Positions 14,830-45,522 of a DNA stretch of 45,522 nt are shown here, one piece after another (positions within the stretch are counted from its first letter, which is position 1; every line of letters begins with the position of its first letter). The notes under the pieces were generated by a model. It saw only the letters and a program-made list of their open reading frames with translations, was not told the DNA's origin and made no database searches. A program made the position numbers and the translations under genes. Source of the stretch: Acidimicrobiaceae bacterium. GTDB taxonomy: Bacteria > Actinomycetota > Acidimicrobiia > Acidimicrobiales > RAAP-2. Where the stretch lies: positions 164 to 45,685 of the forward strand of contig PNAT01000174.1 in assembly GCA_003169675.1 (NCBI GenBank). Direction: 5' to 3'.

Positions 14830-14843
14830 TGACAGACGTGTCA
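14830..14843. promoter_or_regulatory. Operator candidate, site 3 (TGACAGACGTGTCA)
   Basis: The arms TGACA and TGTCA are perfect. The site lies 25 nt before ATG 14869 of the SDR. The preceding TACGGTAGG matches TAGGGTGGG found at the same distance from the site at 21948-21961 on its own transcribed strand, suggesting a shared promoter layout. Confidence 0.68.
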
Positions 14844-21947: not shown

Positions 21948-21961
21948 TGACACTCGTGTCA
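21948..21961. promoter_or_regulatory. Operator candidate, site 4 (TGACACTCGTGTCA)
   Basis: Perfect 6-bp arms. On the minus strand it follows TAGGGTGGG, with TAGGGT a -10-like hexamer, so the operator would lie at the transcription start of the amidohydrolase unit. Confidence 0.72.
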
Positions 21962-29213: not shown

Positions 29214-29270
29214 GAGGGCGGTCACGGGACGGGAATCACGGGGCCGGCACCGTTCCAGCCGCCACCGGTG

Positions 29271-30485
29271 TCAGGAGGTGCGGGAGCGACCGGGCATGGC
29301 GATGGCCCGGTCGGCGATGATGTTCTTCTGGATCTCCGTCGAGCCGCCGCCGATGGTCGAGTAGCGCTGGAAGGCGTAGAGACGGGTCCACTTGCCCCTA
29401 TCGACGGCGTCCGGCCCGCCCCGACCCAGCAGGCCGGCGGGGCCGAGGAGGTCGACGGCCAGCTCGGCCAGGGTTTGGGCCATGGACGACCAGGAGAGCT
29501 TGGCGAAGGGCACCTCGGGCCAGTTCTTCTCGCCCTTCATGATCTTGCTCAGGGCGCGCAAGGAGAGGAGCCGGGCCAACTCGATCTCGGTCCACACCTT
29601 GGCGATGCGGTCCCGCAGCGAGGGGTCCTCCAGGGCGCCGGGATTGACCGAACGCGCCGCCTCGACCATGGCCCGCAAGTCGGCCGAGAGGATGGAGATC
29701 TGGCTGGCGATGCCGACCCGCTCGTAGCCGAGGGTGCCCATGGCCACCATCCAGCCCTGGCCCTCCTCGCCCAGGCGCCAGGCGGCCGGGATGCGGACGT
29801 CGGTGAAGAAGATCTCGTTGAAGAGCTCCTCACCGGCCATGTCCCTGATGGGGCGCACCTCGATGCCCGGGGTGTGCAGGTTGAGGATGAAGGCGGTGAT
29901 CCCCTCGTGCTTCTTGCCGCGCTCGATGGCCGTGGGATCGGTGCGCAACAGGAAGAGGCCCCACGTTGCCAGGTGGGCCGACGAGATCCAGATCTTCGAG
30001 CCGTTCACCACGTAGTCGTCGCCGTCGGAGGCGGCCAGCGTGCGCAGGTTGGCCAGGTCGTTGCCGGCGTCGGGCTCGCTGAACCCCTGGCACCAGTGCT
30101 CGTCGGCCCCCAGGATGGAAGGCAGCCACTGCGCCTTCTGCTCCTCGGTGCCCCAGGCGATGATCATGGGGCCGATCTGCCAGATCCCGTTGGTGTTGAA
30201 CATGCCCGGCGTGCGGTACTCGGCCATCACCTCGGAGTAGATGAGCCGCTGCATGGCGTTGATGGTGCGCCCGTTGGCGTACTCGGGCCCCCAGTGGATG
30301 GCGGCCCAGCCCCCCTCGTTCAACTTGCGCTGCCAGGCCTGGCGCCGCCTTTGGGAGGCCTCGCCGCTGAGACTGGCGTCGTCACCGAGGGACTCGGCTT
30401 CGAGGAAAGGCGGCAGGTGCTTGTCCAACCAGGCCCGGAGCTCGTCGCGGAACGCCTCGTCCTCGGGCGCCAGGGCAAAATCCAC
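29271..30485 (-). CDS. Acyl-CoA dehydrogenase, alpha-type (catalytic-subunit-like)
   Basis: This 404-residue ACAD has GFSEPDAGNDLANL (substrate/FAD loop), KIWISSAHLA, and a C-terminal QRYSTIGGGSTEIQKNIIADR, the FAD-binding end found in catalytic subunits. It oxidises acyl-CoA to enoyl-CoA with FAD. GTG 30485 (VDFALAPEDEAFRDELRAWL) is the start: a -10-like TACCCT lies 6 nt upstream and upstream codons are not protein-like. It diverges from the beta-type ACAD at 30571 across a 14-bp operator. The two may assemble as an alpha2beta2 enzyme, as FadE pairs in actinobacterial steroid catabolism do. Confidence 0.93.
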   Translation of the reverse strand: MDFALAPEDEAFRDELRAWLDKHLPPFLEAESLGDDASLSGEASQRRRQAWQRKLNEGGWAAIHWGPEYANGRTINAMQRLIYSEVMAEYRTPGMFNTNGIWQIGPMIIAWGTEEQKAQWLPSILGADEHWCQGFSEPDAGNDLANLRTLAASDGDDYVVNGSKIWISSAHLATWGLFLLRTDPTAIERGKKHEGITAFILNLHTPGIEVRPIRDMAGEELFNEIFFTDVRIPAAWRLGEEGQGWMVAMGTLGYERVGIASQISILSADLRAMVEAARSVNPGALEDPSLRDRIAKVWTEIELARLLSLRALSKIMKGEKNWPEVPFAKLSWSSMAQTLAELAVDLLGPAGLLGRGGPDAVDRGKWTRLYAFQRYSTIGGGSTEIQKNIIADRAIAMPGRSRTS

Positions 30486-30491
30486 GGGGGA

Positions 30492-30497
30492 AGGGTA
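30492..30497 (-). promoter_or_regulatory. -10-like hexamer TACCCT (minus strand)
   Basis: It lies 6 nt upstream of GTG 30485, indicating a leaderless transcript. The operator at 30516-30529 would then sit over the -35 region of this promoter. Confidence 0.45.
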
Positions 30498-30515
30498 GCC
30501 GACCACCGTGTACTC

Positions 30516-30529
30516 TGACGCTGGCGTCA
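30516..30529. promoter_or_regulatory. Operator candidate, site 5 (TGACGCTGGCGTCA)
   Basis: A perfect palindrome except for the central TG, between divergent acyl-CoA dehydrogenase genes. The plus-strand -10-like TACTCT (30511-30516) shares its last T with the core. A second imperfect copy, GACGCCAGCG (30541-30550), follows. One site could thus control both directions. Confidence 0.72.
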
Positions 30530-30570
30530 GGGTTGGGGACGACGCCAGCGACCGTCGACCAGGGGAAGCC

Positions 30571-31665
30571 GTGGACTTCACATACGATGCCGAGCAGCTG
30601 GCGCTCCAGGACGTGGCGCGCGCCGCGCTCGAGCGTGCCTGTGACCCGCAGCTGTTGCGCGACCTGGCCGAGGACCCCACCGGCATCACCCCCGCCCTGT
30701 GGCAGACGCTGGTCGAGTTGGGCTGGACCGGCCTGCTCGTCCCCGAGGCCCACGGTGGCACCGGGACCGGCCTCTTGGAGATGTGCATCGTGGCCGAGCA
30801 GATGGGCCGCCTCCCGCTGCCCGGGCCGTTCTTCTCCTCGGCCATCGCGGCCACCCTGGCGGCGCACGCCCTGGGAGCGGACGAGCTCCTGGATGACCTG
30901 GCCGCCGGCACCCGCCGCGGCACCATCGCCCTCGGTGAGCAGGGGCACGGCGACCCGCTGGGCACCGTGCGCACCCGGGCCCGCCGGAAAGCCGCCCAGT
31001 GGGTGCTCACGGGGTCCAAGCCCGTGGTGGTCGACGGGCACAGCGCCGACTGGGTGATCGTGGTGGCCCGCAGCGAGGAAGGCGTGCGCTCGTACCTCCT
31101 GGAGACCCCCGGCGCCGACCTGGTGCCCTCGCTCGACCCCACCCGAAAGGTGGCCCGCCTCATCCTCGATGACACCCCGGTGCTTCCGCTCGGCCCCGGG
31201 GGCAGCCAGGCGGCCCTGTGGCGGCGTGTGGCCGACGACATCGCCATCGCCCTGGCTGCCGAGACGGTGGGCGCGGCCGATCGGGCGCTGGCCCAGGCCA
31301 TCGCCTACACCTCCGAACGCGTCGTGTTCGACCGGCCGGTGGCCACCTACCAGAGCGTGCGCCACCGCCTGGTGGAGATGTTCCAGCAAGTGGAGATGGC
31401 GCGGGCCGGGGTGCAGTTCGCCGCCTGGGCCTCCGACACCGATGCCCCCGAGCGCTCGCAATCCGCCGCCATGACCGTCAGCTACGCCGCCGACGCCGGG
31501 GTGCGGGTGACCGGCGACGACATCCAGCTCCATGGGGGCGTGGGCTTCACCTGGTCCAATGACGCCCACTTTCTCTTCAAGCGGGTCAAGCAGAACGACA
31601 TCCTCAGTGGCGGCGCCGCCTCCATGCGGCACCGCCTCGCCTCGCTGTTCATTGAGTCGGCCTGA
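30571..31665 (+). CDS. Acyl-CoA dehydrogenase, beta-type (non-catalytic-subunit-like)
   Basis: This 364-residue ACAD relative starts at GTG 30571 (VDFTYDAEQLALQDVARAAL) with AGGGGAAG upstream. It keeps the FAD-contact R-x-x-F-x-R-P-x-x-x-x-Q-x-x-x-H pattern (RVVFDRPVATYQSVRHRL) but ends in LHGGVGFTWSNDAHFLFKR rather than GGT-x-E, as in the beta partners of heteromeric ACADs. It therefore probably works with a catalytic alpha subunit, the nearest being the divergent gene at 29271-30485. An acyl-CoA ligase follows after 22 nt on the same strand. Confidence 0.92.
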   Translation: MDFTYDAEQLALQDVARAALERACDPQLLRDLAEDPTGITPALWQTLVELGWTGLLVPEAHGGTGTGLLEMCIVAEQMGRLPLPGPFFSSAIAATLAAHALGADELLDDLAAGTRRGTIALGEQGHGDPLGTVRTRARRKAAQWVLTGSKPVVVDGHSADWVIVVARSEEGVRSYLLETPGADLVPSLDPTRKVARLILDDTPVLPLGPGGSQAALWRRVADDIAIALAAETVGAADRALAQAIAYTSERVVFDRPVATYQSVRHRLVEMFQQVEMARAGVQFAAWASDTDAPERSQSAAMTVSYAADAGVRVTGDDIQLHGGVGFTWSNDAHFLFKRVKQNDILSGGAASMRHRLASLFIESA

Positions 31666-31687
31666 GCCTCTCGATGGGGGGCACGGG

Positions 31688-33334
31688 GTGACGGCAGCCC
31701 GGGCGGCGGGTGCGTCCGCCCGTTTCGAGCTCAGCCCCATGCTGCCCCACCTGGTGTCCCGCTACCTGGCCGAAGGCGCCTGGGACGACCGCTCGCTGGG
31801 CCAGTTCCTGGCCGATGCCCTGCTTGAGGACCCGACCCGCCGCTTTCGGATCTGGTCGCCCACCCATCCCTACCTGGGCACGGTGGGTGAGGTCTACGAG
31901 GAGTCGCTCCGGGTGGCCGGGGGGCTGCGCGACCTCGGGTTGGGACCCGGTGACGTGGTGGCCTTCCAGCTCCCGAACTGGGTGGAGGCCGCCCTCACCT
32001 TCTACGCCTGCACCATGCTCGGGGTCACCCTGGTCCCTATCGTGCACTTCTACGGCCCCAAGGAAGTCAGCTTCATCCTGCGCCAGAGCCGGGCCCGGGC
32101 CCTGGTCATCGTCGGCCGCATGGGCGAGCGCGACTACCAGGCGGAACTGGCCACCATCCGTGACTCCCTGGTCGACCTGGAACGGGTGATCGTGGTCGGA
32201 TCGCCCCCGGCGGACGGCGACCTGAGCTTCACCGAGCTGCGCCAGGCCAAGCCGCTGGAGGGACCCGTCGCGGTCGACCCCGACTGGCCGGCGCTGATCG
32301 GGTACACCTCGGGCACCACGGCCGACCCCAAGGGCGTGGTGCATACCCACCGGACCCTCGGGTGCGAGGTGCGCCAGCTCGCGGCCCACCAGTCCGAACG
32401 GGATCGGCCCAATCTCACCGGCGCCCCGGTGGGCCACGCCATCGGCATGCTGGCCGGCCTCCTGTGCCCGCTGGTCGGCGGTCGTCCCCTCTACATGATC
32501 GACGGATGGGACCCGCCCAAGGTGCTCGCCGCCATGGTGGAGGAGGGGATCGGTGCCGGCAACGGCTCGACCTACTTCTTCACCAGCCTGCTGGACTGCC
32601 CGGGGTTCGGGCCCGAACATGTGGACTTGATGCGCTTCATCGGCCTGGGGGGATCACCCATCCCCAACGCGGTGGCCGACCGGGCGGACGACCTGGGGAT
32701 CTCGCTGGTTCGGTCCTACGGCTGCACCGAGCATCCGTCGGTGACGGGCTCCCAGCACTCCGACCCCAAGGAGAAGAGGATCCACACCGATGGCCGCCCG
32801 CTCGAATGGGTCGAGGTACGCACGGTGGACGAGGACGGCCACGACGTCGGGGTGGGCCTCCCGGGCGAGATCCTCTCCCGCGGTCCCGACCGCTTCGCCG
32901 GCTACACCGACCCGGAGCTGACGGACGCCGCCATAGACGCCGACGGGTGGTTCCGCACCGGTGACGTCGGTGTGCTCGACGCTGAGGGCTACCTCACCAT
33001 CACCGACCGAGTGAAGGACATCATCATCCGCGGCGGGGAGAACGTCAGCGCAGCCGAGGTGGAACAGCTGCTGGCCCACATGGACGGCGTGGCCGAAGTG
33101 GCGGTGGTGGCGGCGCCCGACGAGCGCCTGGGCGAGCACGGCTGTGCCTTCTTCCGCATGCAGCCCGGCCTCGCGGCCCCCGATCTGGAGGCGGTGAAGG
33201 CCCATTTGTCCGCGGCCGGGTTGGCCCGCCAGAAGTGGCCCGAAGAGCTGCGCTCGGTGGACGACCTACCCCGCACGGCGTCGGGCAAGGTGCAGAAGTT
33301 CGTCCTGCGCAAACAGCTGCGGGCGGGCGGGTAA
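31688..33334 (+). CDS. AMP-binding acyl-CoA ligase
   Basis: This 548-residue ANL-superfamily enzyme activates a carboxylic acid through an acyl-adenylate to acyl-CoA. YTSGTTADPKGV (206-217) is the P-loop, RSYGCTEHPSVTGS the A5 region, RTGDVGVLDAEGY and ITDRVKDIIIRGGENVS the A7-A8 hinge, and Lys534 in SGKVQKF the adenylation lysine. GTG 31688, after a GGGGGG stretch, is chosen as start; the frame continues upstream only by overlapping the ACAD gene. The specificity is unknown, and the setting next to a beta-type ACAD suggests the same pathway. Confidence 0.9.
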   Translation: MTAARAAGASARFELSPMLPHLVSRYLAEGAWDDRSLGQFLADALLEDPTRRFRIWSPTHPYLGTVGEVYEESLRVAGGLRDLGLGPGDVVAFQLPNWVEAALTFYACTMLGVTLVPIVHFYGPKEVSFILRQSRARALVIVGRMGERDYQAELATIRDSLVDLERVIVVGSPPADGDLSFTELRQAKPLEGPVAVDPDWPALIGYTSGTTADPKGVVHTHRTLGCEVRQLAAHQSERDRPNLTGAPVGHAIGMLAGLLCPLVGGRPLYMIDGWDPPKVLAAMVEEGIGAGNGSTYFFTSLLDCPGFGPEHVDLMRFIGLGGSPIPNAVADRADDLGISLVRSYGCTEHPSVTGSQHSDPKEKRIHTDGRPLEWVEVRTVDEDGHDVGVGLPGEILSRGPDRFAGYTDPELTDAAIDADGWFRTGDVGVLDAEGYLTITDRVKDIIIRGGENVSAAEVEQLLAHMDGVAEVAVVAAPDERLGEHGCAFFRMQPGLAAPDLEAVKAHLSAAGLARQKWPEELRSVDDLPRTASGKVQKFVLRKQLRAGG

Positions 33335-35222: not shown

Positions 35223-35230
35223 TTGCGTCA
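35217..35230. promoter_or_regulatory. Operator candidate, site 6 (TGACATTTGCGTCA)
   Basis: On the minus strand it reads TGACGCAAATGTCA. There the -10-like TACACT (35230-35235) shares its last base with the core and ATG 35222 lies within the core. It sits between divergent ligase genes. Confidence 0.62.
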
Positions 35231-35292
35231 GTGTACAGAGGCATCGCCGCATCGCCCCCGTGGCGACGGTGGCAACGGCGGTCGGAGCGAAC

Positions 35293-35298
35293 TACGTT
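35293..35298 (+). promoter_or_regulatory. -10-like hexamer TACGTT
   Basis: TACGTT is followed by 8 nt and ATG 35307 of the plus-strand ligase, with no Shine-Dalgarno sequence. Its -35 region would lie just downstream of the operator at 35217-35230. Confidence 0.4.
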
Positions 35299-35306
35299 CC
35301 GGCGCC

Positions 35307-36812
35307 ATGGCCAGAGGCGTCACCGAATTCGCGCATCAGGCACCGGAACGGATCGCCCTCATTGCCCCCGATGCGACCGGCGGCGTGTCCACGCGGACCT
35401 ATGGCGAGCTTGATCAACGCGCCCGGCGGCTGGCCAGGGTCTTGCTCGACCTCGGCGCCGGCACCGGGCGGCCGGTGGCCGCCGCGGTGCGCAACGGCCT
35501 TGAGCCCTTCGAGGTTGCCACCGCGGCGGCCATGGCCGGGGCACCATTCCTCCCGCTCAACTGGCACCTCAAAGCCGCCGAGTTGGCCTACCTGCTCGAC
35601 GATGCCGGCGTGGGTGTGGTGGTCGGGCACCAGGACCTGTCCGACCAGCTACCCCAGCCGGGCGGGAACATCGGGGTGGTGCTGCTCGATGCGCCGGATG
35701 CGAGCGGCCACTCCTACGAGACCCTGCTGGCGGATGCACCCGTCGATCCCTCGTTCGACAGCGGTGCCGGTCCGGAGCTGATCTTCTACACCTCGGGCAC
35801 CACGGCGAGGCCCAAGGGCGTGGTGCACGCCGGCCTGGGCGATCCCGAGGTGCGCCATCTGAGCATGGGCGGGCAGGTGCAGCTGTGGGCTTGGACGCAA
35901 GTCGACGTCTATGTGATGTCGGGCCCCTGCTACCACGCCTCCCACGCCGGCTGGGGCTTGACGGCGCTCTACGCCGGCGCCACCACTGTGTTACCGGCCC
36001 GCTTCGAGGCGGAGAGCTTCCTGCGAGCCGTTGAGCGCTATGGCGGCACGCGCTCGTTCATGGTACCGGCACATTTCTTCCGGGTGCTCCAACTGTCCGA
36101 GAGCACCAGGGCGGGCATTGATGCCAGCAGCCTCCGCTTGGTGGTGCATGGGGGGGCGCCGTGTCCCGTCCCGGTCAAGCGCCGCATGATGGCCGCCTTC
36201 CCCGAGACCGAGTTCCACGAGTTGTACGGCGCCAGCGAGGGTGGGGCCACCCGCATCAGCCCGGGAGAATGGCTGGAGCATCCGGGCTCGGTGGGCCGCC
36301 CATGGCCAGGGGTCGAGATCTTCGTGCGGGGCGAAGACGGAACCGCCAAGGCGGCGGGGGAGGACGGCATCATCTACATCCGTCCCGCGTCGTCACGTTT
36401 CAAGTACCGCAACGACCCGGAGGCGACGGCTCACGCATGGTCAGAGGACGCCTTCACCGTGGGTGACATCGGCCATCTGAGCGAGGACGGCTACCTCACC
36501 ATCACCGACCGCATCTCGGACATGGTCCTTTGGGGCGGGGTGAACATCGCACCCCGAGAGATCGAAGAGGTGCTCTTCGCCCACCCCGCCGTGATCGATT
36601 GCGCGGTGTTCGGCATACCCGACGAGCGGGACGGTGAGCACCTCAAGGCCCTGGTCGAGTTGCGGGAACCCGTCACCTGGGAGGACCTGGCCGCCCACGT
36701 CCGGCTGCACTTGGCGGACTACAAGGTCCCCCATGAGTGGGAGGCGGTCGCCGAGTTGCCGCGCGATCCCAACGGCAAGGTGCTCAAACGCCTGCTGCGG
36801 GGAGCAGGCTGA
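35307..36812 (+). CDS. AMP-binding acyl-CoA ligase
   Basis: This 501-residue ANL enzyme has P-loop YTSGTTARPKGVV (161-173), FHELYGASEGGATRIS (A5), DIGHLSEDGYLTITDRISDM (A7-A8) and adenylation Lys491 in NGKVLKRLL. ATG 35307 (MARGVTEFAHQAPERIALIA) is chosen; 28 in-frame residues upstream look non-coding. It is divergent from the PaaK-like ligase and shares the operator region. Its 3' end overlaps the convergent TetR gene by 29 nt. It is the third ANL ligase within 6 kb, so the cluster can activate several related acids. Confidence 0.9.
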   Translation: MARGVTEFAHQAPERIALIAPDATGGVSTRTYGELDQRARRLARVLLDLGAGTGRPVAAAVRNGLEPFEVATAAAMAGAPFLPLNWHLKAAELAYLLDDAGVGVVVGHQDLSDQLPQPGGNIGVVLLDAPDASGHSYETLLADAPVDPSFDSGAGPELIFYTSGTTARPKGVVHAGLGDPEVRHLSMGGQVQLWAWTQVDVYVMSGPCYHASHAGWGLTALYAGATTVLPARFEAESFLRAVERYGGTRSFMVPAHFFRVLQLSESTRAGIDASSLRLVVHGGAPCPVPVKRRMMAAFPETEFHELYGASEGGATRISPGEWLEHPGSVGRPWPGVEIFVRGEDGTAKAAGEDGIIYIRPASSRFKYRNDPEATAHAWSEDAFTVGDIGHLSEDGYLTITDRISDMVLWGGVNIAPREIEEVLFAHPAVIDCAVFGIPDERDGEHLKALVELREPVTWEDLAAHVRLHLADYKVPHEWEAVAELPRDPNGKVLKRLLRGAG

Positions 36813-37398
36813 GAATCTGGGCCGCCTCGTTGGCCCGCTGTGCCACCATGGCGGCCAGATCGCCATCGTCATTGATGACACCGGCGGCGTACTGCACATA
36901 GATCCCAACCACCGTGGCGCAGAGCAATCGGGCCACGGCAGGCCCACCCGAACGCTCGTCGAGATCGGGGCGGTAGGTGCCGATCCATTGCTCAATGGAC
37001 GTCTGGAACGAGGTGAAGAGGTCGAGACCGACGGCCCGGGCCGTGACCTCGCCCCGCATGGCCTCGCCCACCATGAGGCGGACAAAGTCCTCGATCTCGA
37101 ACATGGACGTGAGAATGGTGGTCAAGAGGACGGCGAGCTGGTCCACGGGTGACCCGTCCCCCTCGGGTTCGGGGGGCCGAGCCCGCACCGGGGTGAACCC
37201 GCGCTCCGCCAACACGGCCTCGAGCAGCTCCCGTTTGGAGGGGAAGTAGTGATAGAGGGACGCCACGTTGAGCCCGGTGGCCGAGGCCAGGTCGCGCATG
37301 CTCGTGCCGTCCACGCCTCGCTGGGACATCAGGGACAGGGCAATCTGGAGAATCCTGAGCCTGGTGGTGGGTCCCTCGACCTGGTTCTCTGTCGTCAT
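36784..37398 (-). CDS. TetR/AcrR family transcriptional regulator
   Basis: This 204-residue regulator has a helix-turn-helix at about 13-60 (LRILQIALSLMSQRGVDGTS, then GLNVASLYHYFPSKRELLEAVL) and a C-terminal TetR_C-type helical domain with FEIEDFVRLMVGEAMRGEV. ATG 37398 is chosen (GGGGG just upstream); ATG 37407 is an alternative and longer frames look non-coding. It diverges from the P450 operon. The shared region holds two different palindromes, CAAACGACCGTTTG and TGACACTGGTGTCA. It is a candidate binder of either, and its effector is probably a pathway acyl-CoA. Confidence 0.92.
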   Translation of the reverse strand: MTTENQVEGPTTRLRILQIALSLMSQRGVDGTSMRDLASATGLNVASLYHYFPSKRELLEAVLAERGFTPVRARPPEPEGDGSPVDQLAVLLTTILTSMFEIEDFVRLMVGEAMRGEVTARAVGLDLFTSFQTSIEQWIGTYRPDLDERSGGPAVARLLCATVVGIYVQYAAGVINDDGDLAAMVAQRANEAAQILSLLPAAGV

Positions 37399-37455: not shown

Positions 37456-37469
37456 CAAACGACCGTTTG
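37456..37469. promoter_or_regulatory. Palindrome CAAACGACCGTTTG
   Basis: A perfect inverted repeat (CAAACG-N2-CGTTTG), 58 bp upstream of the TetR start. The pattern resembles the C/GAAAC-N-GTTTG/C operator of the TetR fatty-acid regulator PsrA. It occurs once here and differs from the TGAC sites. Confidence 0.55.
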
Positions 37470-37476
37470 CTATACA

Positions 37477-37490
37477 TGACACTGGTGTCA
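37477..37490. promoter_or_regulatory. Operator candidate, site 7 (TGACACTGGTGTCA)
   Basis: Perfect 6-bp arms, 38 bp before ATG 37529 of the P450. It lies between a TTGCTA (37467-37472) and a CATATT (37489-37494), which could be -35 and -10 elements with a 16-nt spacer, so binding would block the promoter. Confidence 0.72.
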
Positions 37491-37528: not shown

Positions 37529-38770
37529 ATGGCATCCAGTGACACGGCCAACACTGCGGCAGCGGCGTTCGACCCTTATGAGCTCAAGGACGTCGTCTCG
37601 GGCAGTATCCGCGACCCCTACCCGAAAATGCACGAGCTACGCCGGGAGTGTCCGGTCCACACGGGGCCGATCGATCTGGGTGAGGGGGCGGACATTGCCG
37701 ACCCGAACCGTCCCGCTCCGGTGACCGTGTTCGGATTCGATGAGGTCGTCCAGGTGCTGCGGGACAACGGGACCTACTCATCCAGCGTCTACGAAGGTGT
37801 CATGGGCATGGTGATGGGCCGCACCATCCTGCAGATGGATGAGCCCGACCATCGCATCGCCCGGGCCATGGTGGCCCCCAGCTTTCGCTCCAAGGTCCTC
37901 GAGCGTTGGGAAGAGGAGCTGGTGGCCGTGGTGGTCAACGAGCTGATCGACTCCTTCATCGACCGGGGGCACGCCGACCTGGTGCGCGAGGTCACGTTCA
38001 ACTTCCCGGCACAGGTCATCGCCCGCATCCTCGGGCTGCCCCGGGCCGACTACTCCAATTTCCAACGATGGGCCATTGAACTGACCAGCGTGGCGGCGAA
38101 CTGGGAACGCGGGGTGGCAGCATCCGAAGCGCTGCGCGCCTACTTCGCCGGTGTGATGGAAGAGCGTCGGGCGGCACCGGGGGACGACCTCATTAGTGAT
38201 CTGGTCCGGGTGGAGGTCGAGGGATCGACCTTGAGCGACGAGGAGATCTACTCCTTCCTTCGTCTCCTCCTTCCCGCCGGCGTGGAGACGACCTACCGGG
38301 CCACGGGCAATCTGTTGCTGGCGCTGCTCACCGATCGCAGCCAATTTGATGCCCTCTACAACGACCGGACGCTCTACCCCCAGGCCTTCGAGGAGGCCCT
38401 GCGGTGGGAGCCGCCAGTGACGGTGATCCTTCGCCGGGCCATGCGGGACACCACCTTGGCCGGCGTCCACATTGAGGCCGGCGCCGACATCGCGCTGTTG
38501 CTGGGCGCAGCCAACAGGGACGAGCGGAAATACACCGATCCCGACCGCTACGACATGTTCCGGGAGATCCGCCAGCATGTGGGCTTCGGATTCGGCGTGC
38601 ACGTCTGCCTGGGCATGCACCTGGCCCGCATGGAATCGAGGGTGGCCATCAACACACTGTTCGACCGCCTGGGTGAGTTCACCCTCGATCCTGACGCGGA
38701 GGTCCCGCACATCGCCGGCATGGCGTTCCGCTCGCCCCTTTCCCTTCCGGTCGTTTTCGCCGCCCGCTGA
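37529..38770 (+). CDS. Cytochrome P450
   Basis: This 413-residue bacterial class I P450 has AGVETTYRATGN (I helix, oxygen-activation Thr), EEALRWEPP (ExxR region) and FGFGVHVCLGMHLARME with heme-ligand Cys360. It is soluble, with no membrane anchor. GGGGGAA precedes ATG 37529. The likely electron donor, a 3Fe-4S ferredoxin, is two genes downstream. It probably hydroxylates a chain or ring before oxidation by the following enzymes; the family assignment (CYP125/142-like or other) cannot be made from sequence alone. It is the first gene of a six-gene run and lies behind operator site 7. Confidence 0.95.
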   Translation: MASSDTANTAAAAFDPYELKDVVSGSIRDPYPKMHELRRECPVHTGPIDLGEGADIADPNRPAPVTVFGFDEVVQVLRDNGTYSSSVYEGVMGMVMGRTILQMDEPDHRIARAMVAPSFRSKVLERWEEELVAVVVNELIDSFIDRGHADLVREVTFNFPAQVIARILGLPRADYSNFQRWAIELTSVAANWERGVAASEALRAYFAGVMEERRAAPGDDLISDLVRVEVEGSTLSDEEIYSFLRLLLPAGVETTYRATGNLLLALLTDRSQFDALYNDRTLYPQAFEEALRWEPPVTVILRRAMRDTTLAGVHIEAGADIALLLGAANRDERKYTDPDRYDMFREIRQHVGFGFGVHVCLGMHLARMESRVAINTLFDRLGEFTLDPDAEVPHIAGMAFRSPLSLPVVFAAR

Positions 38771-38806
38771 CGATCCCACCCGCCACGAGGGCTAGGTTCA
38801 GTCATC

Positions 38807-39976
38807 ATGGCCAAGGAGAGCAGGCCCTTGCAGGATGCGGCGGCCATCGTCGGCATCGGGCAGACCGAGTTCGCCAAGCACATCGACCGGCCCGAGGGAC
38901 AGCTAGCCGCTGAAGCGGTGGTGGCCGCCCTGCGCGACGCCGGCATTGAGCCGAGGGAAGTCGACGGGTTGTCGTCCTTCACCATGGAGACCACCGACGA
39001 GGTCACCATGGCCAAGAACATCGGGGCCGGGGACGTGACGTACTTCTCCCAAGTGGGCTACGGCGGCGGTGCCGGGTGCGCCACCATCGGCCACGGCGCC
39101 ATGGCCATCGCCACCGGCCAGGCCAAGGTGGTCGTGGCCTGGCGCTCGCGTAAACGGGGGGCCCGGGGATCCCGGCCGTGGGCGGCCGCGCCGTCCCGTT
39201 TGCCCATACAGGCCCAGTGGACCCGGCCCTTCGGGCTGTTGCGCCCGGTGGATGAGGTGGCCATGTTGGCCCGGCGCTACATGTTCGAATATGGCGGGGG
39301 TCGGGAGCACCTGGCCGAGGTGGCCATGGCCATCCGGGCGCACGCCAATCGAAATCCGGCTGCGCTCATGTACGACAAGCCGATGTCGCTGAGCGACTAC
39401 ATGTCGGCCCGCTTCATTTCCGAGCCCTTGTGCCTCTTCGACAATTGTCTGGAGACCGACGGTGCGTTGGCGGCGGTCATCGTGTCGGCCGAGCGAGCCC
39501 GGGACTGCCCGCATCCCCCCGTGCTCGTGCATGCATTCGGCCAGGGGATGCACCGCCAGCATGAGTCGATGGTCAACTACTACTGCGACGATCCCCTCAC
39601 CGGTCCGGCCTGGACCTGTGCAGAGAAGCTGTGGTCGCAGTCCGAATTGGGTCCGGCCGACGTCGACGTGGCGCAGATCTACGACGCCTTCACGCCGCTG
39701 ATCCTGCTCTCGCTGGAGGGCTACGGTTTCTGCAAACGCGGTGAGGCGGCCGACTTTGTGGCGGACGGCAATCTTCGTTGGGGCACGGGTTCCCTCCCCA
39801 CCAACACCTCGGGCGGCGGGCTCTCCGAGGCCTACGTCCACGGCTTCAATCTGATCACCGAGGGCGTGCGGCAGATGCGCGGCACCTCGACCAGCCAAGT
39901 CGAAGGCGCCCGCACGTGCCTGGTGACGTCGGGAGAAGGCGTGCCCACCAGCGCCGTTCTCCTCCGGACGGAGTGA
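38807..39976 (+). CDS. Thiolase-like lipid-transfer protein (SCP-x/Ltp type)
   Basis: This 389-residue thiolase-fold protein has IVGIGQTEFAKH at the start, VAQIYDAFTPLILLSLEGYG in the C-terminal half, and NTSGGGLSEAYVHGFN, the Ltp signature. The nucleophile-cysteine region reads VGYGGGAGCATIGHGAMAI, so the canonical Cys is missing. It is a second member of the type seen at 15802. Ltp-type enzymes with a DUF35 partner cleave side-chain CoA esters by retro-aldol reaction; no DUF35 gene is visible here. The -10-like TAGGTT 8 nt before ATG 38807 may give an internal start. Confidence 0.88.
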   Translation: MAKESRPLQDAAAIVGIGQTEFAKHIDRPEGQLAAEAVVAALRDAGIEPREVDGLSSFTMETTDEVTMAKNIGAGDVTYFSQVGYGGGAGCATIGHGAMAIATGQAKVVVAWRSRKRGARGSRPWAAAPSRLPIQAQWTRPFGLLRPVDEVAMLARRYMFEYGGGREHLAEVAMAIRAHANRNPAALMYDKPMSLSDYMSARFISEPLCLFDNCLETDGALAAVIVSAERARDCPHPPVLVHAFGQGMHRQHESMVNYYCDDPLTGPAWTCAEKLWSQSELGPADVDVAQIYDAFTPLILLSLEGYGFCKRGEAADFVADGNLRWGTGSLPTNTSGGGLSEAYVHGFNLITEGVRQMRGTSTSQVEGARTCLVTSGEGVPTSAVLLRTE

Positions 39977-40008
39977 TTTCGGTGAGCAGCGGAGCGGAAG
40001 GAGGCACC

Positions 40009-40239
40009 ATGAACGAACCACTGGACGTCAAGATCGACTGGGACCGCTGCATGGGATCGGGCAACTGCGTCTTCTGGGCCCCTCAGACGTTCGACCTGAG
40101 CGAGGACGGCCACGCCGTCGTCATTGATGCCAGCGCCACCGATGAGGAGCGGCTGCGCATAGCCGCCGAGGGCTGTCCCGTTGGAGCGATCTCGCTCTGG
40201 CGGGGCGGGGTGGAACTCCCTGCAGGCGAGGAGTCGTAG
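40009..40239 (+). CDS. 3Fe-4S ferredoxin, P450 redox partner
   Basis: The 76-residue ferredoxin has Cys14, Cys20 and Cys56 (CMGSGNC and EGCPVGAI). The first motif lacks the extra cysteine of 4Fe-4S proteins, so a 3Fe-4S cluster is expected, as in actinobacterial P450-associated ferredoxins. GGAAGGAGG lies 6 nt before ATG 40009, the best ribosome-binding site in this operon. It ends in TAGTG, overlapping the next gene's GTG by one base. It should pass electrons to the P450 at 37529; the reductase is not in the window. Confidence 0.93.
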   Translation: MNEPLDVKIDWDRCMGSGNCVFWAPQTFDLSEDGHAVVIDASATDEERLRIAAEGCPVGAISLWRGGVELPAGEES

Positions 40240-42446
40240 TGCCCATTGCGGTCAATGAGGACCACGAGGCACTGCGCCTGACCGCGCTGCGCTGGTTGCA
40301 GGCCCACTGTCCTGGCACGGTACCGCGGGCTGCGGCGGAGTCCAAGAGCGGGGAACTCCCCGCGGCATGGGAGGCTATGGCCGCACAGGGCTGGCTGGGC
40401 CTTCATGTGGCGGAAGCCGACGGCGGCCAGGGTTTCTCGCTGAGTGAGCTGGCGGTGGTGCTCGAAGAGCTCGGCTATGCCCTGTTCCCCGGACCCGTGC
40501 TCCCGACCGTGTTGGCCGCAGCCGTGATCTCCCGGCATGGCACCCCAGCCCAGCGGTCCGCCCTACTCCCCGGGTTGGCCGACGGCAGCACGCCTGCCGC
40601 GGTGGCCCTGAGTGCCGGGACACTGCAACGCCATCAAGGCGTGAGCCTGTCGGTGAGCGGCACGCTCCGGCCCGTCCTGGGTCTGGTGACGGCCAGCCTG
40701 CTGCTCGCACCGATGGACGACGGTTGCTGGTGCGTGCTCGAACCTGCCCATGGCGTCGAGGTTGAGGCGCTGCCCGCCCTCGATGGCACCCGGGCCCTGG
40801 GCCAGCTGGTTGCTGAGAACGCCCCGTTGTCTGACGACGCCCTGCTCCCGACGGTGACGATGGAGGAGGTGCGTGACCTGGCCCTGGTTCTGGTGGCGGC
40901 CGAATCGGCCGGCATGGCCCGCTGGTGCCTCGACACCGCGTCGGAGTATGCCAAGGTCCGCGTGCAGTTCGGCCGACCGATCGGCCAGTTCCAGGCCGTC
41001 AAGCACGCCCTGGCCGACATGCTGGTCTCCGTCGAGCAGTGCGCAGCCGTCGCCTGGGACGGCGCGGCGGCGTGGAGTGATGCGGGGATCGTCGCCGAAG
41101 GGGCGGGAGAACGAGCGCTCAGCGCACGCGTGGCCGGGGCGGTCAGCCTCGAAGCTGCCACGCACTGCGCCAAGCAGTGCATCCAGGTGCTGGGAGGGAT
41201 CGGCTTCACCTGGGAGCATGACGCGCACTTCTACCTGAAGCGGACAATGGCCAACCGTCAACTCCTGGGTGATGTCGGCTCTTTGGAGTTGGAGGTCAGC
41301 GCGCTGGCCATCGATGGCGTGCGACGGGGCCTGGACGCTGTCCTCCCGCCCGAGGCTGAGGTGATGCGCCCCGAGATCCAAGCGCTCGTGCATGAGGTGG
41401 CCGAAGCCGGTGCCGGCGCCGACCAGCGGGCCGCCCTGGTCCGGGCCGGACTGATCATGCCGCACTGGCCCGCACCCTGGGGGAGGGGGTCCTCACCGCT
41501 GGAGCAGATCGTCATCGACCAGGAGCTGGCGTCGGCCGGGATCCCGCGCCCACACCTTGCGGTCGGCGCCTGGGCCCTGCCGACCCTGATCGCGCACGGG
41601 ACCGCGGAGCAGCAGGAACGTTGGGTCCGTCCCACACTCTTGGGTGAGCTTTCGTGGTGCCAACTGTTCAGCGAGCCTGGCGCGGGTTCGGACCTGGCCG
41701 CCCTGAGCACCAAGGCCGAGAAGGTTGACGGCGGCTATCTCCTCACCGGTCAAAAGGTGTGGACGTCATTGGCCCACACGGCCGATTTCGGGATCTGCCT
41801 CGCCCGCAGCGACCCCAACGCCCCCAAGCACGCCGGCATCACCTACTTCATCGTCGACATGCAGAGCGAGGGACTCGATATCAGGCCGCTTCGTGAGCTC
41901 ACCGGTGCCGCCATGTTCAATGAGGTCTTCCTACAGAACGTCTTCGTGGCTGACGATGCCGTGGTCGGCCAGCCGGGCGACGGGTGGAGAATCGGTCGCA
42001 CGACCCTGGCCAACGAACGAGTCTCCATGTCCTCGGGTGCGTCGTTCGGCAACGGCGTGGAGTCACTCATACGCACCGTGACCCGGCGCGGCGAAGAGTG
42101 CCCACCCAGCCTGGCCGCAGGCCTGGGCCATCTGCTGGTGGAGGCGCAGTCCATCGCGCTGCTCGGTCACAGGGCGACGCTGCGGGCCCTCTCCGGGGTC
42201 GACCCGGGGAGTGGTTCGAGTGTGCGCAAGCTCTTAGGAGTGGAGCACGAGCAGCGGGTGCAAGAGATGGGCATGGCGCTCTACGGGGCCGATGGTGCCG
42301 TGCTGGACGGGCGGGCCAGGCGGTGGGAAGAAGGCTTCCTCTCCACCCGGTGCCTGACCATTGCCGGCGGCACCAGCGAGGTGCAGCGCAACGTCATCGC
42401 CGAGCGGATGCTGGGGCAGCCGCGGGATGCCGAACCGGGCCGGTAG
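40239..42446 (+). CDS. Two-domain acyl-CoA dehydrogenase (fused beta-type and alpha-type)
   Basis: This 735-residue protein is built from two ACAD domains. The N-terminal half (about 1-360) has RVQFGRPIGQFQAVKH (241-256) and GGIGFTWEHDAHFYLKR (about 318-334), the beta-type ending. The C-terminal half has FSEPGAGSDLAAL (about 476-488), QKVWTSLAHTADFG and AGGTSEVQRNVIAERML (about 709-725), the catalytic type. The layout matches FadE34-like fused ACADs of steroid side-chain oxidation. GTG 40239 is the start, overlapping the ferredoxin stop. It may oxidise a branched or bulky acyl-CoA; the substrate is inferred only from this architecture and its P450/Ltp neighbours. Confidence 0.9.
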   Translation: MPIAVNEDHEALRLTALRWLQAHCPGTVPRAAAESKSGELPAAWEAMAAQGWLGLHVAEADGGQGFSLSELAVVLEELGYALFPGPVLPTVLAAAVISRHGTPAQRSALLPGLADGSTPAAVALSAGTLQRHQGVSLSVSGTLRPVLGLVTASLLLAPMDDGCWCVLEPAHGVEVEALPALDGTRALGQLVAENAPLSDDALLPTVTMEEVRDLALVLVAAESAGMARWCLDTASEYAKVRVQFGRPIGQFQAVKHALADMLVSVEQCAAVAWDGAAAWSDAGIVAEGAGERALSARVAGAVSLEAATHCAKQCIQVLGGIGFTWEHDAHFYLKRTMANRQLLGDVGSLELEVSALAIDGVRRGLDAVLPPEAEVMRPEIQALVHEVAEAGAGADQRAALVRAGLIMPHWPAPWGRGSSPLEQIVIDQELASAGIPRPHLAVGAWALPTLIAHGTAEQQERWVRPTLLGELSWCQLFSEPGAGSDLAALSTKAEKVDGGYLLTGQKVWTSLAHTADFGICLARSDPNAPKHAGITYFIVDMQSEGLDIRPLRELTGAAMFNEVFLQNVFVADDAVVGQPGDGWRIGRTTLANERVSMSSGASFGNGVESLIRTVTRRGEECPPSLAAGLGHLLVEAQSIALLGHRATLRALSGVDPGSGSSVRKLLGVEHEQRVQEMGMALYGADGAVLDGRARRWEEGFLSTRCLTIAGGTSEVQRNVIAERMLGQPRDAEPGR

Positions 42447-42477
42447 CAGGAGGCGGCACCGATAAGGTGGCCGGGCA

Positions 42478-42879
42478 ATGAGCGCGGATCACGCAGAGAT
42501 CGACCCGGACGTCAACCAGGACGAATGGCCGTTCCCGTCGGAGAAGTTCCTCCACGAGTGGGCACCCGGGGTGCTGCAGGCCCAAAACGCGTGGATGGCG
42601 TCCATCGACTCACTCCGCGCCCCTGACCGCAAGACCCATGAGCTCATCCGCATGGTGTGCACGGTGATCGCCCGTCAACCCGGGGGAGTGCAACGACACG
42701 CCCGGCTGGCCGCTGAGGTAGGTGCCACGTGGGACGAGATTGCCGGATCCATCCTTTTGACCGAGCCGGCCTTCGGAATTGTCCTGGCCATTCAAGCGTT
42801 GCCCGCCGCCCGCCGGGGCTTCAAACAAGGGATGTCGGGCAGCACCAGAGGCGACGGTGGGGAATCGCTGGGGGTCTGA
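42478..42879 (+). CDS. Carboxymuconolactone-decarboxylase-like protein
   Basis: The 133-residue helical protein has the CMD/AhpD-type core KTHELIRMVCTVIARQPGGV then QRHARLAAEVGATWDEIAGS. The redox CxxC of AhpD is absent: the segment has a single Cys and Q-R-H-A. The -10-like TAAGGT lies 9 nt before ATG 42478. Its stop TGA is the first part of the operator at 42877-42890. Its function is unknown; the second CMD-family protein in the window (22262) also lacks the cysteines. Confidence 0.8.
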   Translation: MSADHAEIDPDVNQDEWPFPSEKFLHEWAPGVLQAQNAWMASIDSLRAPDRKTHELIRMVCTVIARQPGGVQRHARLAAEVGATWDEIAGSILLTEPAFGIVLAIQALPAARRGFKQGMSGSTRGDGGESLGV

Positions 42880-42890
42880 CACGCGTGTCA
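42877..42890. promoter_or_regulatory. Operator candidate, site 8 (TGACACGCGTGTCA)
   Basis: The most symmetric copy in the window: all 14 bases are palindromic. It overlaps the stop codon of the CMD-like gene and ends 9 nt before ATG 42900. The following CATAGT (42889-42894) is -10-like, which would make the next transcript leaderless from ATG 42900. Confidence 0.72.
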
Positions 42891-42899
42891 TAGTTGGCC

Positions 42900-44159
42900 A
42901 TGCGCCTGGCCCCTGACGACGCGCTCACAGAATTCCGGCGGGAGCTCGAAGAGTGGTTAGACGAGCACCAGCCCGGTCCCGAGACCATGAAGGAGCAGTT
43001 CCGGAAATCATCAGCCCACCTCCCGCAGTGGGCCCGGGACTTCCAGCGCGCCATGTTCGAAGCTGGGTACCTTGTTCCGGGTTGGCCGCCCGAATTGGGG
43101 GGGCGCAACGCTTCGGTGCAGGAGCAGATGGTCTACTTCGAAGTCCTGGCCGAGCGCTCGGCGCCACGCTCCCTCAACCCGCAGGGACTCTCCATCTGCG
43201 CCGCCTCGATTGTCGAATTCGGCTCCGAAGAGCAGAAGGAACGATTCGTCGTTCCCACCCTGCGGGGCGAGATCACCTGGTGCGTCGGCATGAGCGAGCC
43301 CAATGCCGGGAGCGACCTGGCCTCCCTGGCCACGAAGGCGGAATTCCGGGAGGATCATTTCGTCGTCAATGGGCAGAAGGTCTGGACGTCGGGAGCCCAC
43401 GAGGCCGACGTGTGCATGTGCTACGTGCGCACCGACCCCGAAGCGGCCAAGCACAGGGGGATCAGCGTGCTCATCATCGATATGCGGACGCCCGGCATCA
43501 CGTGCCGGCCATTGCCTGAGTTGACCGATCCGGACCACGCCGATTTCAACGAAGTCTTCTTCACCGACGTTGAAGTTCCCGAGGAAAATCTTCTCGGTCA
43601 ACTCAACCAGGGCTGGTCAGTGAGCCAAGGATCGCTGCGCCACGAGAGGGGCATGCTCTGGATCATGAACGTGTCCAAGATGGAGCGCACCTTGAATTCA
43701 CTGATTCGCCTCTCCGCCCGGGACGATGGTCGGGGGTCCACCCTTGGTGCCGACCACCGCCTGGCCCAGGCGATCGGACAGTTGGCCACCGACATCGCGG
43801 CCATGCGGTGTCTCGGCTACCGGGGGTTCGCCAAGGCGAACCGGGGTGAAATGCCTCCCGAGCACATGCTGCTCAAGCTCTTCACCAGTGAGGCCGAACG
43901 CCGGGCCTGCCTGGTGGCTTCGGACGCTCTCGGTCTTGACGGCCTCGACCTCGAAGGACCCGGCCCCCAGCGGTTCACCGACTGGGACCTGGCTCACTTC
44001 GAGCCTGACCCGCTGGAAACGGGGCCGACCAGCCCGTTCTATGACGGCTCCTGGGCCGTCCAGTACCTGCGATCCTTTGCCGGCACCATTGCCGGTGGGA
44101 CGTCGGAGATCCAGCGCAATATCGTGGCCGAGCGCGTGCTCGGACTTCCCCGGGGGTGA
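42900..44159 (+). CDS. Acyl-CoA dehydrogenase
   Basis: The 419-residue ACAD has GMSEPNAGSDLASL, NGQKVWTSGAHEAD (FAD and substrate region) and AGTIAGGTSEIQRNIVAERVL at the C-terminus, so it is a catalytic-type subunit. The N-terminal half (LTEFRRELEEWLDEHQPG) resembles large FadE-type enzymes. ATG 42900 is chosen over TTG 42894 because operator and -10-like element lie directly before it. It may share a substrate with the fused ACAD or form a homomer. An aldehyde dehydrogenase follows after 7 nt, probably in the same unit. Confidence 0.92.
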   Translation: MRLAPDDALTEFRRELEEWLDEHQPGPETMKEQFRKSSAHLPQWARDFQRAMFEAGYLVPGWPPELGGRNASVQEQMVYFEVLAERSAPRSLNPQGLSICAASIVEFGSEEQKERFVVPTLRGEITWCVGMSEPNAGSDLASLATKAEFREDHFVVNGQKVWTSGAHEADVCMCYVRTDPEAAKHRGISVLIIDMRTPGITCRPLPELTDPDHADFNEVFFTDVEVPEENLLGQLNQGWSVSQGSLRHERGMLWIMNVSKMERTLNSLIRLSARDDGRGSTLGADHRLAQAIGQLATDIAAMRCLGYRGFAKANRGEMPPEHMLLKLFTSEAERRACLVASDALGLDGLDLEGPGPQRFTDWDLAHFEPDPLETGPTSPFYDGSWAVQYLRSFAGTIAGGTSEIQRNIVAERVLGLPRG

Positions 44160-44166
44160 GGTACTC

Positions 44167-45522
44167 ATGACGTTGTCCGTACTCGGCCAGCGCGATCAGC
44201 TGGGCGTGCAGCCCGGTCAGCTCTACATTGACGGCGCGTGGTGCGACGCCTCCGACGGTGGCGTGTGGGATCAGGCGAACCCGGCCACCAACGAGGTGGT
44301 CACCACCTTCGCCGTCGCTAGCGCGGCCGACGTGGACCGTGCGGTAGCGGCAGCTCGCACAGCGTTCGACGAGGGGCCGTGGCCCCGGATCACCGCCAAG
44401 GAGCGCAAGGCCTACTTCAACCGACTGGTGGCACTCATTGCGGCGCACGGTGAGGAGCTCAACCGGCTGCAGACTCTGGAGATGGGCATGCCCATCGCCT
44501 TCTCCTCCATGCCGGTGGTCTCTTACGAAATGGCAGCCGGAGTCTTCGATCATCACGGCGGCTGGATCGACAAGATCTGCGGCTCGACCTACCCGACCTA
44601 TGAGGCCGGACCGACGGGGGCCGACGTGCAGATCATGAGCTTCCGCGAGCCGGTGGGTGTGGTGGCCGCCATCATCCCGTGGAATGCCCCCATGATGCTC
44701 TTCGCGCAGAAGGTGGCGCCGGCGCTGGCCACCGGGTGCACCGTGGTGGTCAAGCCGTCCGAGTACGCCGTGCTCACCTCTTTGAAGTTGGCGGCGTTGA
44801 TCGAGATGGCGGGCTTCCCGCCCGGGGTCTTCAATCTGATCCCTGGACCAGGCGATCCCACCGGTGAGGCGCTCATCACGCACCCCGGGGTGGACAAGGT
44901 CACCTTCACCGGCAGCCGGGCCGTGGGAAAGCGCATCTTGGCGGCCAGCGGGGACACCATCAAGAGGGTGACACTCGAGTTGGGGGGCAAGTCGCCCAGC
45001 GTCATCTTTGAGGATGCCGAGAGTGTCGAGGGAGCGGCCATGATGGCGATGGGCATGGTATCCATGGGCCTGTCGGGCCAGGGGTGCGTGTGCCAGACCC
45101 GCTCCCTGGTGCAGCGCAGCGTCTACGACGCCTTCGTGGAGGCAGCCGCTACCTTGGTTGACATGGTCCAATTCGGCGATCCGTTCGACACCGCCACGAC
45201 ATCGGGCGCCATCATCAATCAGCGCCAACTCGACCGTGTGCTCGGCTTCATTGAGAAGGCACCGGCGCAGGGAGCTCGCCTGGTCGCCGGTGGTGGCCGG
45301 CCCGGAGGTGACCTGGCGCAAGGGAACTTCGTCAACCCCACTTTGTTCGCTGATGTCGACAACACCATGTCGGTCGCCCGGGAGGAGGTGTTCGGCCCGG
45401 TCCTGGTGGCCATGCCGTTCGACGACGAGGAAGAAGCAGTGAGGTTGGCCAACGACACCGACTACGGACTGGGGGCAGGCGTGTACACGACCAATGTGGC
45501 CCGGGCCTTCCGGGTGGCCAAG
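44167..45522 (+). CDS. Aldehyde dehydrogenase (3' end outside window)
   Basis: ATG 44167 opens a frame of 452 codons with no stop before the window edge, so the last 30-50 residues are missing. Features of the ALDH superfamily: IIPWNAPMMLFAQKVAPALA, KPSEYAV, FTGSRAVGK, general-base Glu271 in LELGGKSP, nucleophile Cys307 in SGQGCVCQTR, and EEVFGPVL near the end. It oxidises an aldehyde to the acid with NAD(P)+. It fits after an alcohol or Ltp/retro-aldol step in the preceding operon. Confidence 0.92.
   Translation, partial: MTLSVLGQRDQLGVQPGQLYIDGAWCDASDGGVWDQANPATNEVVTTFAVASAADVDRAVAAARTAFDEGPWPRITAKERKAYFNRLVALIAAHGEELNRLQTLEMGMPIAFSSMPVVSYEMAAGVFDHHGGWIDKICGSTYPTYEAGPTGADVQIMSFREPVGVVAAIIPWNAPMMLFAQKVAPALATGCTVVVKPSEYAVLTSLKLAALIEMAGFPPGVFNLIPGPGDPTGEALITHPGVDKVTFTGSRAVGKRILAASGDTIKRVTLELGGKSPSVIFEDAESVEGAAMMAMGMVSMGLSGQGCVCQTRSLVQRSVYDAFVEAAATLVDMVQFGDPFDTATTSGAIINQRQLDRVLGFIEKAPAQGARLVAGGGRPGGDLAQGNFVNPTLFADVDNTMSVAREEVFGPVLVAMPFDDEEEAVRLANDTDYGLGAGVYTTNVARAFRVAK

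Follow-up and report, generated by a model that had tools for sequence, protein, structure and literature searches.

A conserved gene cluster, probably for side-chain catabolism, with an Ltp2-type aldolase and a CMD-like protein in Acidimicrobiaceae

Introduction

Aldolases of the Ltp2/DUF35 type are known mainly from the degradation of steroid side chains. In Actinobacteria, the igr operon, with ChsE1-ChsE2 and ChsH1-ChsH2-Ltp2, is devoted to the C3 side chain of cholesterol. Here, we analysed a run of seven genes in a 45,522-nucleotide stretch of DNA from an uncultured soil bacterium of the Acidimicrobiaceae (assembly GCA_003169675.1, contig PNAT01000174.1, positions 164 to 45,685), hereafter called the window. 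It is part of contig C8 of a metagenome-assembled genome (MAG) of 3.56 Mb that is 90.7% complete. The cluster resembles the igr operon in its cytochrome P450, its FadE-type dehydrogenases and its Ltp2-subfamily aldolase with a Tyr-Tyr dyad. In contrast with igr, it has neither DUF35 nor MaoC genes, has a single-chain acyl-CoA dehydrogenase (ACAD), and additionally codes for a CMD-like protein, a ferredoxin and an aldehyde dehydrogenase (ALDH). The genome also harbours a separate igr-like string, on contig C104.

The Sal/Shy and Atf1/ChsH4 operons share with the cluster a thiolase-fold aldolase, a CoA-dependent side-chain pathway and TetR-type control (KstR3). However, a DUF35 partner adjoins the aldolase in those operons (PMC12329534, PMC10398937), unlike in the window. 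The closest outside Ltp2 (53% identity) is found on plasmid p3 of Novosphingobium sp. ES2-1, with the same YDAF motif and with P450 and TetR neighbours. That locus (L151, 11534-15428), on a plasmid typed as conjugative, comprises MaoC-like (assigned by eye), Ltp2, DUF35, P450 and TetR genes. It thus differs from the window by its DUF35 and MaoC-like neighbours, and its P450 is 31% identical to ours over the matched part. As detailed below, the window probably harbours a set of co-regulated genes for acyl-CoA catabolism, through which a large, branched and probably isoprenoid- or sterol-like molecule would have its side chain shortened.

Results

Gene content and conservation of the cluster

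Gene identities were determined by Pfam, NCBIfam and PDB sequence searches. All seven genes proposed in the initial annotation are present in the order that it gave, on the + strand between positions 37529 and 45522, and the catalytic motifs are intact in all the enzymes:

37529-38770, + strand: P450 (PF00067, 2.4e-27; ExxR at residues 289-292, AGVETT at 250-255, heme motif FGFGVHVCLG at 353-362)
38807-39976, + strand: Ltp2-subfamily thiolase-fold aldolase (NCBIfam PRK07855; motifs YDAF and AYVH; TcLtp2 6OK1, 8e-109)
40009-40239, + strand: single-cluster ferredoxin (PF13459/PF13370; CMGSGNC...CP)
40239-42446, + strand: FadE34-type fused acyl-CoA dehydrogenase, ACADf (catalytic Glu593 in the C-terminal half)
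42478-42879, + strand: CMD-like protein (PF02627; Glu55/His74, Cys pair absent)
42900-44159, + strand: acyl-CoA dehydrogenase ACAD2 (HER catalytic motif)
44167-45522, + strand: ALDH, cut by the end of the window (PF00171, 3e-140; ELGGK at 271, GQGC at 304)

The ALDH frame closes in the contig beyond the window, after a short run of N (at about 8086 of L002). The genes are tightly packed, and the stop codon of the ferredoxin gene overlaps the start of the ACADf gene (TAGTG).

We searched for relatives with the fused ACAD as the query, which yielded full-length homologues across the family, and 20 loci (designated by L numbers) were read. The cluster-bearing relatives found by name are Acidimicrobiaceae or Acidimicrobiales MAGs. 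The gene order recurs in related Acidimicrobiaceae MAGs, with identities of 64-83% for the P450, 73-84% for Ltp2 and 67-89% for the ALDH. Over the 20 loci, the core is P450-(Ltp2)-ferredoxin-ACADf-(CMD)-(ACAD2)-(ALDH), with a divergent TetR gene in most of them. The tight packing, the overlapping genes and the order kept in other MAGs argue that this run did not arise by chance. The run is a real, conserved cluster, probably for side-chain catabolism.

The Ltp2 gene is found in the window and in L046, L047, L049, L051 and L052, as well as in the truncated L050. It is missing from L048, L054, L055/L056 and L077, and from L053, where the P450 gene is missing as well. An ALDH gene is present in all six complete Ltp2-positive clusters but in only one of the five Ltp2-negative ones (L077); with near-identical loci counted once, a Fisher test performed by hand gave p of about 0.015, a value that serves as a guide only, since the genomes are related. 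This co-occurrence fits an aldolase that sets an aldehyde free and is in line with the initial proposal that the ALDH then acts on this aldehyde.

The Ltp2-type aldolase and DUF35 proteins

The window Ltp scores 559 bits against NCBIfam PRK07855, above the curated cut-off of 469. In TcLtp2, Tyr294 is the base, Tyr344 the acid, and His296 belongs to the oxyanion hole (PMC12329534). The two Tyr residues align with Tyr292 and Tyr343 of the window protein and are conserved in all seven window-type Ltp proteins. In contrast, the His residue of the YDHF motif is replaced by Ala in the seven proteins and in the Ltp2 of Novosphingobium ES2-1; changing His296 in TcLtp2 had only a 14-fold cost (PMC12329534). 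The Ltp proteins encoded beside CMD genes in other families have YDGF/GRLH. In a maximum-likelihood tree, the window group joins the ES2-1 Ltp2 (support 100/100), both together are sister to canonical Ltp2 proteins including the C104 copy, with moderate support (89/72), and the window group is well apart from the Ltp proteins of the CMD modules. Conservation of both the Tyr base and the Tyr acid supports the initial assignment of the window Ltp as a probable retro-aldolase.

The initial annotation also pointed out the absence of DUF35 genes. This is correct for the window, but not for the genome, which harbours 13 DUF35 sites elsewhere in its 3.56 Mb, including a ChsH2-type DUF35 on contig C104. 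In annotated plasmid loci, Ltp2-subfamily genes have a DUF35/OB-fold gene adjoining them or close by, and some of these contexts are non-steroid. The igr-like string on C104 (L165, 6889-11770) is organized as ACAD-ChsH2(MaoC+DUF35)-ACAD-MaoC-Ltp2, in a genome devoid of detectable KshA and HsaC.

The fused acyl-CoA dehydrogenase

ACADf comprises two ACAD halves in one chain. The N-terminal half resembles Tcur3481 and contains the FAD-side motif R241-x2-FG...Q252, and the C-terminal half resembles Tcur3483 and harbours the catalytic Glu593 (NER), conserved in 36 of 36 sequences. The halves have separate, neighbouring genes as their counterparts in other organisms. ACADf is 47% identical to a protein encoded alongside kstR and mce genes in Tsukamurella and 46% identical to one encoded alongside a KstR homologue in Nocardia farcinica; the genes of these two proteins hold a position like that of fadE34 in Mycobacterium tuberculosis, where Rv3573c adjoins kstR (Rv3574). 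The single chain, the FAD-side motif in the N-terminal half, the catalytic Glu in the C-terminal half and the 46-47% identity over nearly the full length are shared with FadE34 (ChsE3). Unlike FadE34, however, ACADf is not encoded beside kstR, and it belongs to a separate, weakly rooted group of the tree (deep branches 56/9). The fused ACAD listed in the initial annotation is present, and sequence comparison identifies it as the known FadE34-type architecture rather than a novel fusion. A second fused ACAD (45% identity) is encoded on contig C3 (L063), about 3 kb from a TetR gene whose product is 63% identical to the window TetR; this is perhaps a sister regulon.

The P450 and the ferredoxin

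The AlphaFold2 model of the P450 has a pLDDT of 83. Its best Foldseek matches are sitosterol-bound CYP125, CYP109E1 with steroids, CYP109B4 and CYP142, but the top matches also include P450BioI and EryK, i.e. fatty-acid and macrolide P450s, all at near 30% identity. In the Foldseek alignments, the P450 is 28-31% identical to sterol hydroxylases of the CYP125, CYP142 and CYP124 types, under the 40% family line. The modelled resemblance to sterol P450s is thus suggestive but not diagnostic. Naming the P450 by family, with CYP188, CYP189 and CYP190 as candidates, was given up, and literature and plasmid searches revealed no characterised member. No grouping of the P450 with a characterised family of unrelated substrate was seen.

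The CXXSXXC...CP motif of the ferredoxin is conserved, with Ser as the non-Cys residue, a variant also found in M. marinum Fdx9. P450s are known to be supported by ferredoxins with CXX?XXC-type motifs (PMC6237146). However, the ferredoxin gene is directly upstream of the ACADf gene in 22 of the 36 loci with room for it, and a P450 gene is nearby in only nine of these 22. The ferredoxin is thus linked as closely with the fused ACAD as with the P450. Genes for CXXSXXC-type ferredoxins located close upstream of a fused ACAD gene, with no P450 gene nearby, were seen in L200, L211, L213, L214, L219, L222, L223, L233 and L236.

The CMD-like protein

The CMD-like protein matches PF02627 weakly but over threshold (25.3 bits; gathering score 23.0). 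Its predicted model is all-helical and weakly matches CMD entries (TM 0.5-0.64, E above 0.01). It resembles the CMD/AhpD family in this fold and in the spacing between Glu and His, which is that of AhpD (E+19). In contrast with that family, it has no CxxC motif, with Gln67 and Gly70 at the AhpD Cys positions as judged by spacing, and its gene is linked to Ltp/DUF35 genes. Glu55, Arg58, Arg66, Arg73, His74 and Trp85 are invariant in its relatives. An AhpD-type peroxidase function was rejected, since the redox pair is absent.

With a profile of the CMD-like protein, relatives were identified in 52 of 395 Acidimicrobiia genomes, and a phylum-wide search found few carriers outside the class. We determined the same-strand neighbours within 6 kb at 44 other loci. 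DUF35 genes are found in 42 of them and Ltp genes in 41, followed by MaoC (32-33), ACAD2 (27) and fused ACAD genes (20-22). As estimated from the 13 DUF35 sites of our genome, about 0.04 DUF35 genes per locus would be expected by chance. Conservation and these linkages led us to reject the idea that the CMD-like gene is a chance neighbour. The typical order is ferredoxin-ACADf-MaoC-DUF35-CMD-DUF35-Ltp-ACAD2. The string MaoC-DUF35-CMD-DUF35-Ltp occurs throughout the Acidimicrobiia (L158-L161, L199-L238), and its Ltp belongs to the YDGF/GRLH subfamily devoid of the Ltp2 Tyr acid. Thus, far from the oddity of this cluster that it first seemed to be, the CMD-like protein is, on the evidence of gene linkage, a class-wide companion of Ltp/DUF35 genes. 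Literature searches for CMD proteins with DUF35 or aldolases, and for this gene set, returned nothing relevant. Lyases of the Ltp/DUF35 type may thus have in this protein a partner that has so far been overlooked, putatively with acid-base catalysis. More tentatively, it could be a third subunit, catalytic or structural, of Acidimicrobiia Ltp/DUF35 acyl-CoA lyase complexes beside MaoC and DUF35, where it would decarboxylate, isomerise or handle an enolate, a step with no known counterpart in steroid aldolase systems, and it would have been kept here after loss of the DUF35 and MaoC genes; we regard this possibility as doubtful.

Putative operators

A TetR gene is divergent from the P450 gene, and palindromes are found in this region and elsewhere in the window:

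36784-37398, - strand: TetR-family regulator (PF00440, 1e-16; 55-66% identical divergent TetR in related clusters)
37456-37469: CAAACGACCGTTTG palindrome, probable TetR operator, between the TetR and P450 genes
37477-37490: TGACACTGGTGTCA operator-like palindrome, TetR/P450 region, upstream of P450
42877-42890: TGACACGCGTGTCA operator-like palindrome, before ACAD2
21948-21961: TGACACTCGTGTCA operator-like palindrome, flanked by AMH2 and by CMD2 (+ strand, CMD2-SDR2 unit)

A KstR identity of the regulator was rejected (37.7 bits for a cut-off of 280). The sequence CAAACGNNCGTTTG has a single exact copy in the genome, between the TetR and P450 genes, and this site is conserved in five related clusters (twice in L046, and in L047, L049, L051 and L052). 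The second palindrome, TGACACNNGTGTCA, occurs without mismatch three times in the genome, each time within the window; in related clusters, it precedes ACAD2 in L049 and ALDH in L047. With at most one mismatch, there are 11 genomic sites, compared with three for the reversed control; a fourth site in the window, with a mismatch, is located at 14830-14843, between an acyl-CoA synthetase gene and an SDR-Ltp unit. From these sites, the TetR protein would control the divergent promoter, and binding to the second palindrome would tie in other units. The cluster is thus probably co-regulated.

The hydratase and other neighbouring genes

Other genes of the window code for related functions:

35223-36812, + strand: AMP-forming acyl-CoA ligase LIG2 (PF00501, 1.6e-61; adjoins TetR/P450 in L049, L052, L055 and L056)
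31532-33334, + strand: acyl-CoA ligase LIG1 (78% identity in L048; 53-62% beside CMD modules)
30508-31665, + strand: acyl-CoA dehydrogenase ACADp, divergent partner of ACADm
29271-30488, - strand: acyl-CoA dehydrogenase ACADm (longer ORF start non-coding)
27711-29225, - strand: thiolase-like protein type 1, TLP1 (PF18313; linked in L046, L047, L051 and L054)
20621-21916, - strand: amidohydrolase-2 family protein AMH2 (PF04909)
19798-20607, - strand: EchA19-like enoyl-CoA hydratase ECH2 (best NCBIfam match EchA19)
7531-8712, + strand: thiolase THL (PF00108/PF02803; 79% identical orthologue adjoins the cluster in L054)

The open reading frame (ORF) 29271-31301 was rejected as a further fused ACAD. 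It corresponds to two genes, as its first 271 residues match no reference protein used and are overlapped by the divergent ACAD gene 30508-31665.

The initial annotation had stated that hydratase genes are absent, which holds only inside the 37.5-45.5 kb region. The window harbours two crotonase-family genes, at 11538-12377 and 19798-20607, and the latter, ECH2, is next to a shared operator and, in other genomes, syntenic with the cluster. EchA19 is the best match of ECH2, although at 269.9 bits it is under the equivalog cut-off of 400. In L054, a near-complete genome of 2.0 Mb, the genes of THL (79%), ECH2 (78%), TLP1, ACADm, ACADp, P450, ferredoxin and ACADf are contiguous, and L071 has ECH2 (78%), TLP1, ACADm, ACADp and P450 in one string. 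Hence, ECH2 appears to share both the putative regulon and the syntenic group of the cluster. EchA19 acts on the 22-ene 24-oyl-CoA (PMC8708139) and ChsE3/FadE34 on 3-oxochol-4-en-24-oyl-CoA (PMC6678751), with the EchA19 step after that of FadE34/ChsE3. As these substrates fit, the FadE34-like and EchA19-like proteins would form a coherent pair.

In Frankiaceae and Mycobacterium, a gene for an amidohydrolase-2 homologue is found at 2-3 kb from that for a P450 homologue (L081, L109, L117, L123-L125, L128, L129, L135 and L139), reminiscent of AMH2 in the window. A single stretch of a distant genome (L160) codes for orthologues of the window proteins SDR1 (64%), Ltp_h (65%), AMH2 (64%), ACAD2 (57%) and CMD (55%).

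Discussion

The gene content suggests the following pathway. The P450, fed by the ferredoxin, would oxidise a terminal methyl group, and LIG1 or LIG2, judging from their families, would form the CoA ester. The FadE34-type dehydrogenase, whose catalytic residues are present, would introduce the alpha,beta double bond of an as yet presumptive substrate, with ACAD2 or ACADm/ACADp acting in other rounds. The double bond would be hydrated by ECH2, which is tied to the cluster by linkage and an operator. The Ltp2-type enzyme, with its conserved dyad and probably with a DUF35 protein in trans, would then cleave the beta-hydroxyacyl-CoA by retro-aldol reaction, and the ALDH that co-occurs with it would oxidise the released aldehyde. 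The thiolase and SDR proteins of the window could handle ordinary thiolytic rounds. The CMD-like protein would be an accessory of Ltp-type lyases and would probably act, by acid-base catalysis, on the acyl-CoA intermediate that these lyases use. This largely agrees with the order of reactions and the steroid-like but distinct pathway proposed initially.

Several observations weigh against this interpretation, which is based on genes and their comparison. In the closest systems known, Ltp2 requires DUF35, and every Ltp2-positive relative read is, like the window, devoid of a DUF35 gene. L048, L054, L055 and L077 keep the P450-ferredoxin-ACADf genes without Ltp2, so clusters of this type do not require the aldol step. 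As the ferredoxin gene adjoins that of ACADf even without a nearby P450 gene, the ferredoxin may not serve this P450 alone. The TGACACNNGTGTCA palindrome was first spotted by eye at two places, so that a fair test comes only from the third exact site and from the lack of any further one. Finally, KshA_C has no match in this 90.7% complete genome, and HsaC has only a 19-bit match, with none over the cut-off in 14 members of the family including this one, while two mycobacterial genomes (Mycolicibacterium) and N. farcinica, used as controls, score strongly. The failure to find KshA and HsaC makes it unlikely that steroids sustain full growth through the 9,10-seco route.

Those results also bear on the idea that the cluster is a true sterol or bile-acid side-chain operon, i.e. 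a second copy of an igr-type pathway for steroid C5 and C3 side chains. The Ltp2 subfamily, the FadE34-type ACAD, the EchA19-like hydratase, the proximity of the P450 model to sitosterol-bound CYP125 and to steroid-bound CYP109 and CYP142, and the igr-like string on C104 are in its favour. We nevertheless consider it rather improbable, given the undetected ring-degradation proteins, the identity of about 30% to CYP125/142/109 and the fatty-acid and macrolide P450s among the top structural matches. A non-steroid pathway with the same types of enzymes, for a terpenoid, a hopanoid, an aromatic-alkyl or another branched acid, comes close to an even chance and overlaps our preferred interpretation, which leaves the substrate open. 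In Rhodococcus and Sphingopyxis, Ltp2-subfamily genes are found beside genes for CaiB transferases, hydroxylases and parts of dioxygenases, outside any evident steroid context. LIV-type transporters are encoded beside related ACADf genes, and ring-cleavage genes were not found here. However, FadE34-, EchA19- and Ltp2-like genes together lean to sterol-shaped substrates. A sterol-like or other isoprenoid side chain is a possible substrate.

It is also conceivable, though we think it unlikely, that the Ltp2-like protein has lost its aldolase function and is now thiolase-like or a scaffold, with the ALDH belonging to another pathway. The replacement of the oxyanion-hole His in all seven proteins, the lack of DUF35 in the cluster and the loss of the gene in some relatives would fit. 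However, both catalytic Tyr residues are retained, identities of 73-84% indicate strong selection, the His296 change has a small effect in TcLtp2, ALDH genes co-occur with the Ltp2-like gene, and YDAF is also found in the ES2-1 Ltp2, which does have a DUF35 neighbour. That the seven genes are mere neighbours without a common pathway is very improbable. P450 homologues of 52-57% identity do occur in other gene contexts in Mycobacterium, but the order kept in several genera, the overlapping genes and the shared operators already contradict it.

In conclusion, we favour a role of the cluster in shortening the side chain of a large, branched molecule. A probably co-regulated Ltp2-type cluster without DUF35 in cis, in a lineage in which the usual ring-cleavage genes were not found, would suggest that aldol cleavage of side chains extends to other substrates. 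The linkage between CMD, DUF35 and Ltp genes suggests, for a small protein family without assigned function, a specific role that can be tested, and the two operators may provide a handle on the regulon.

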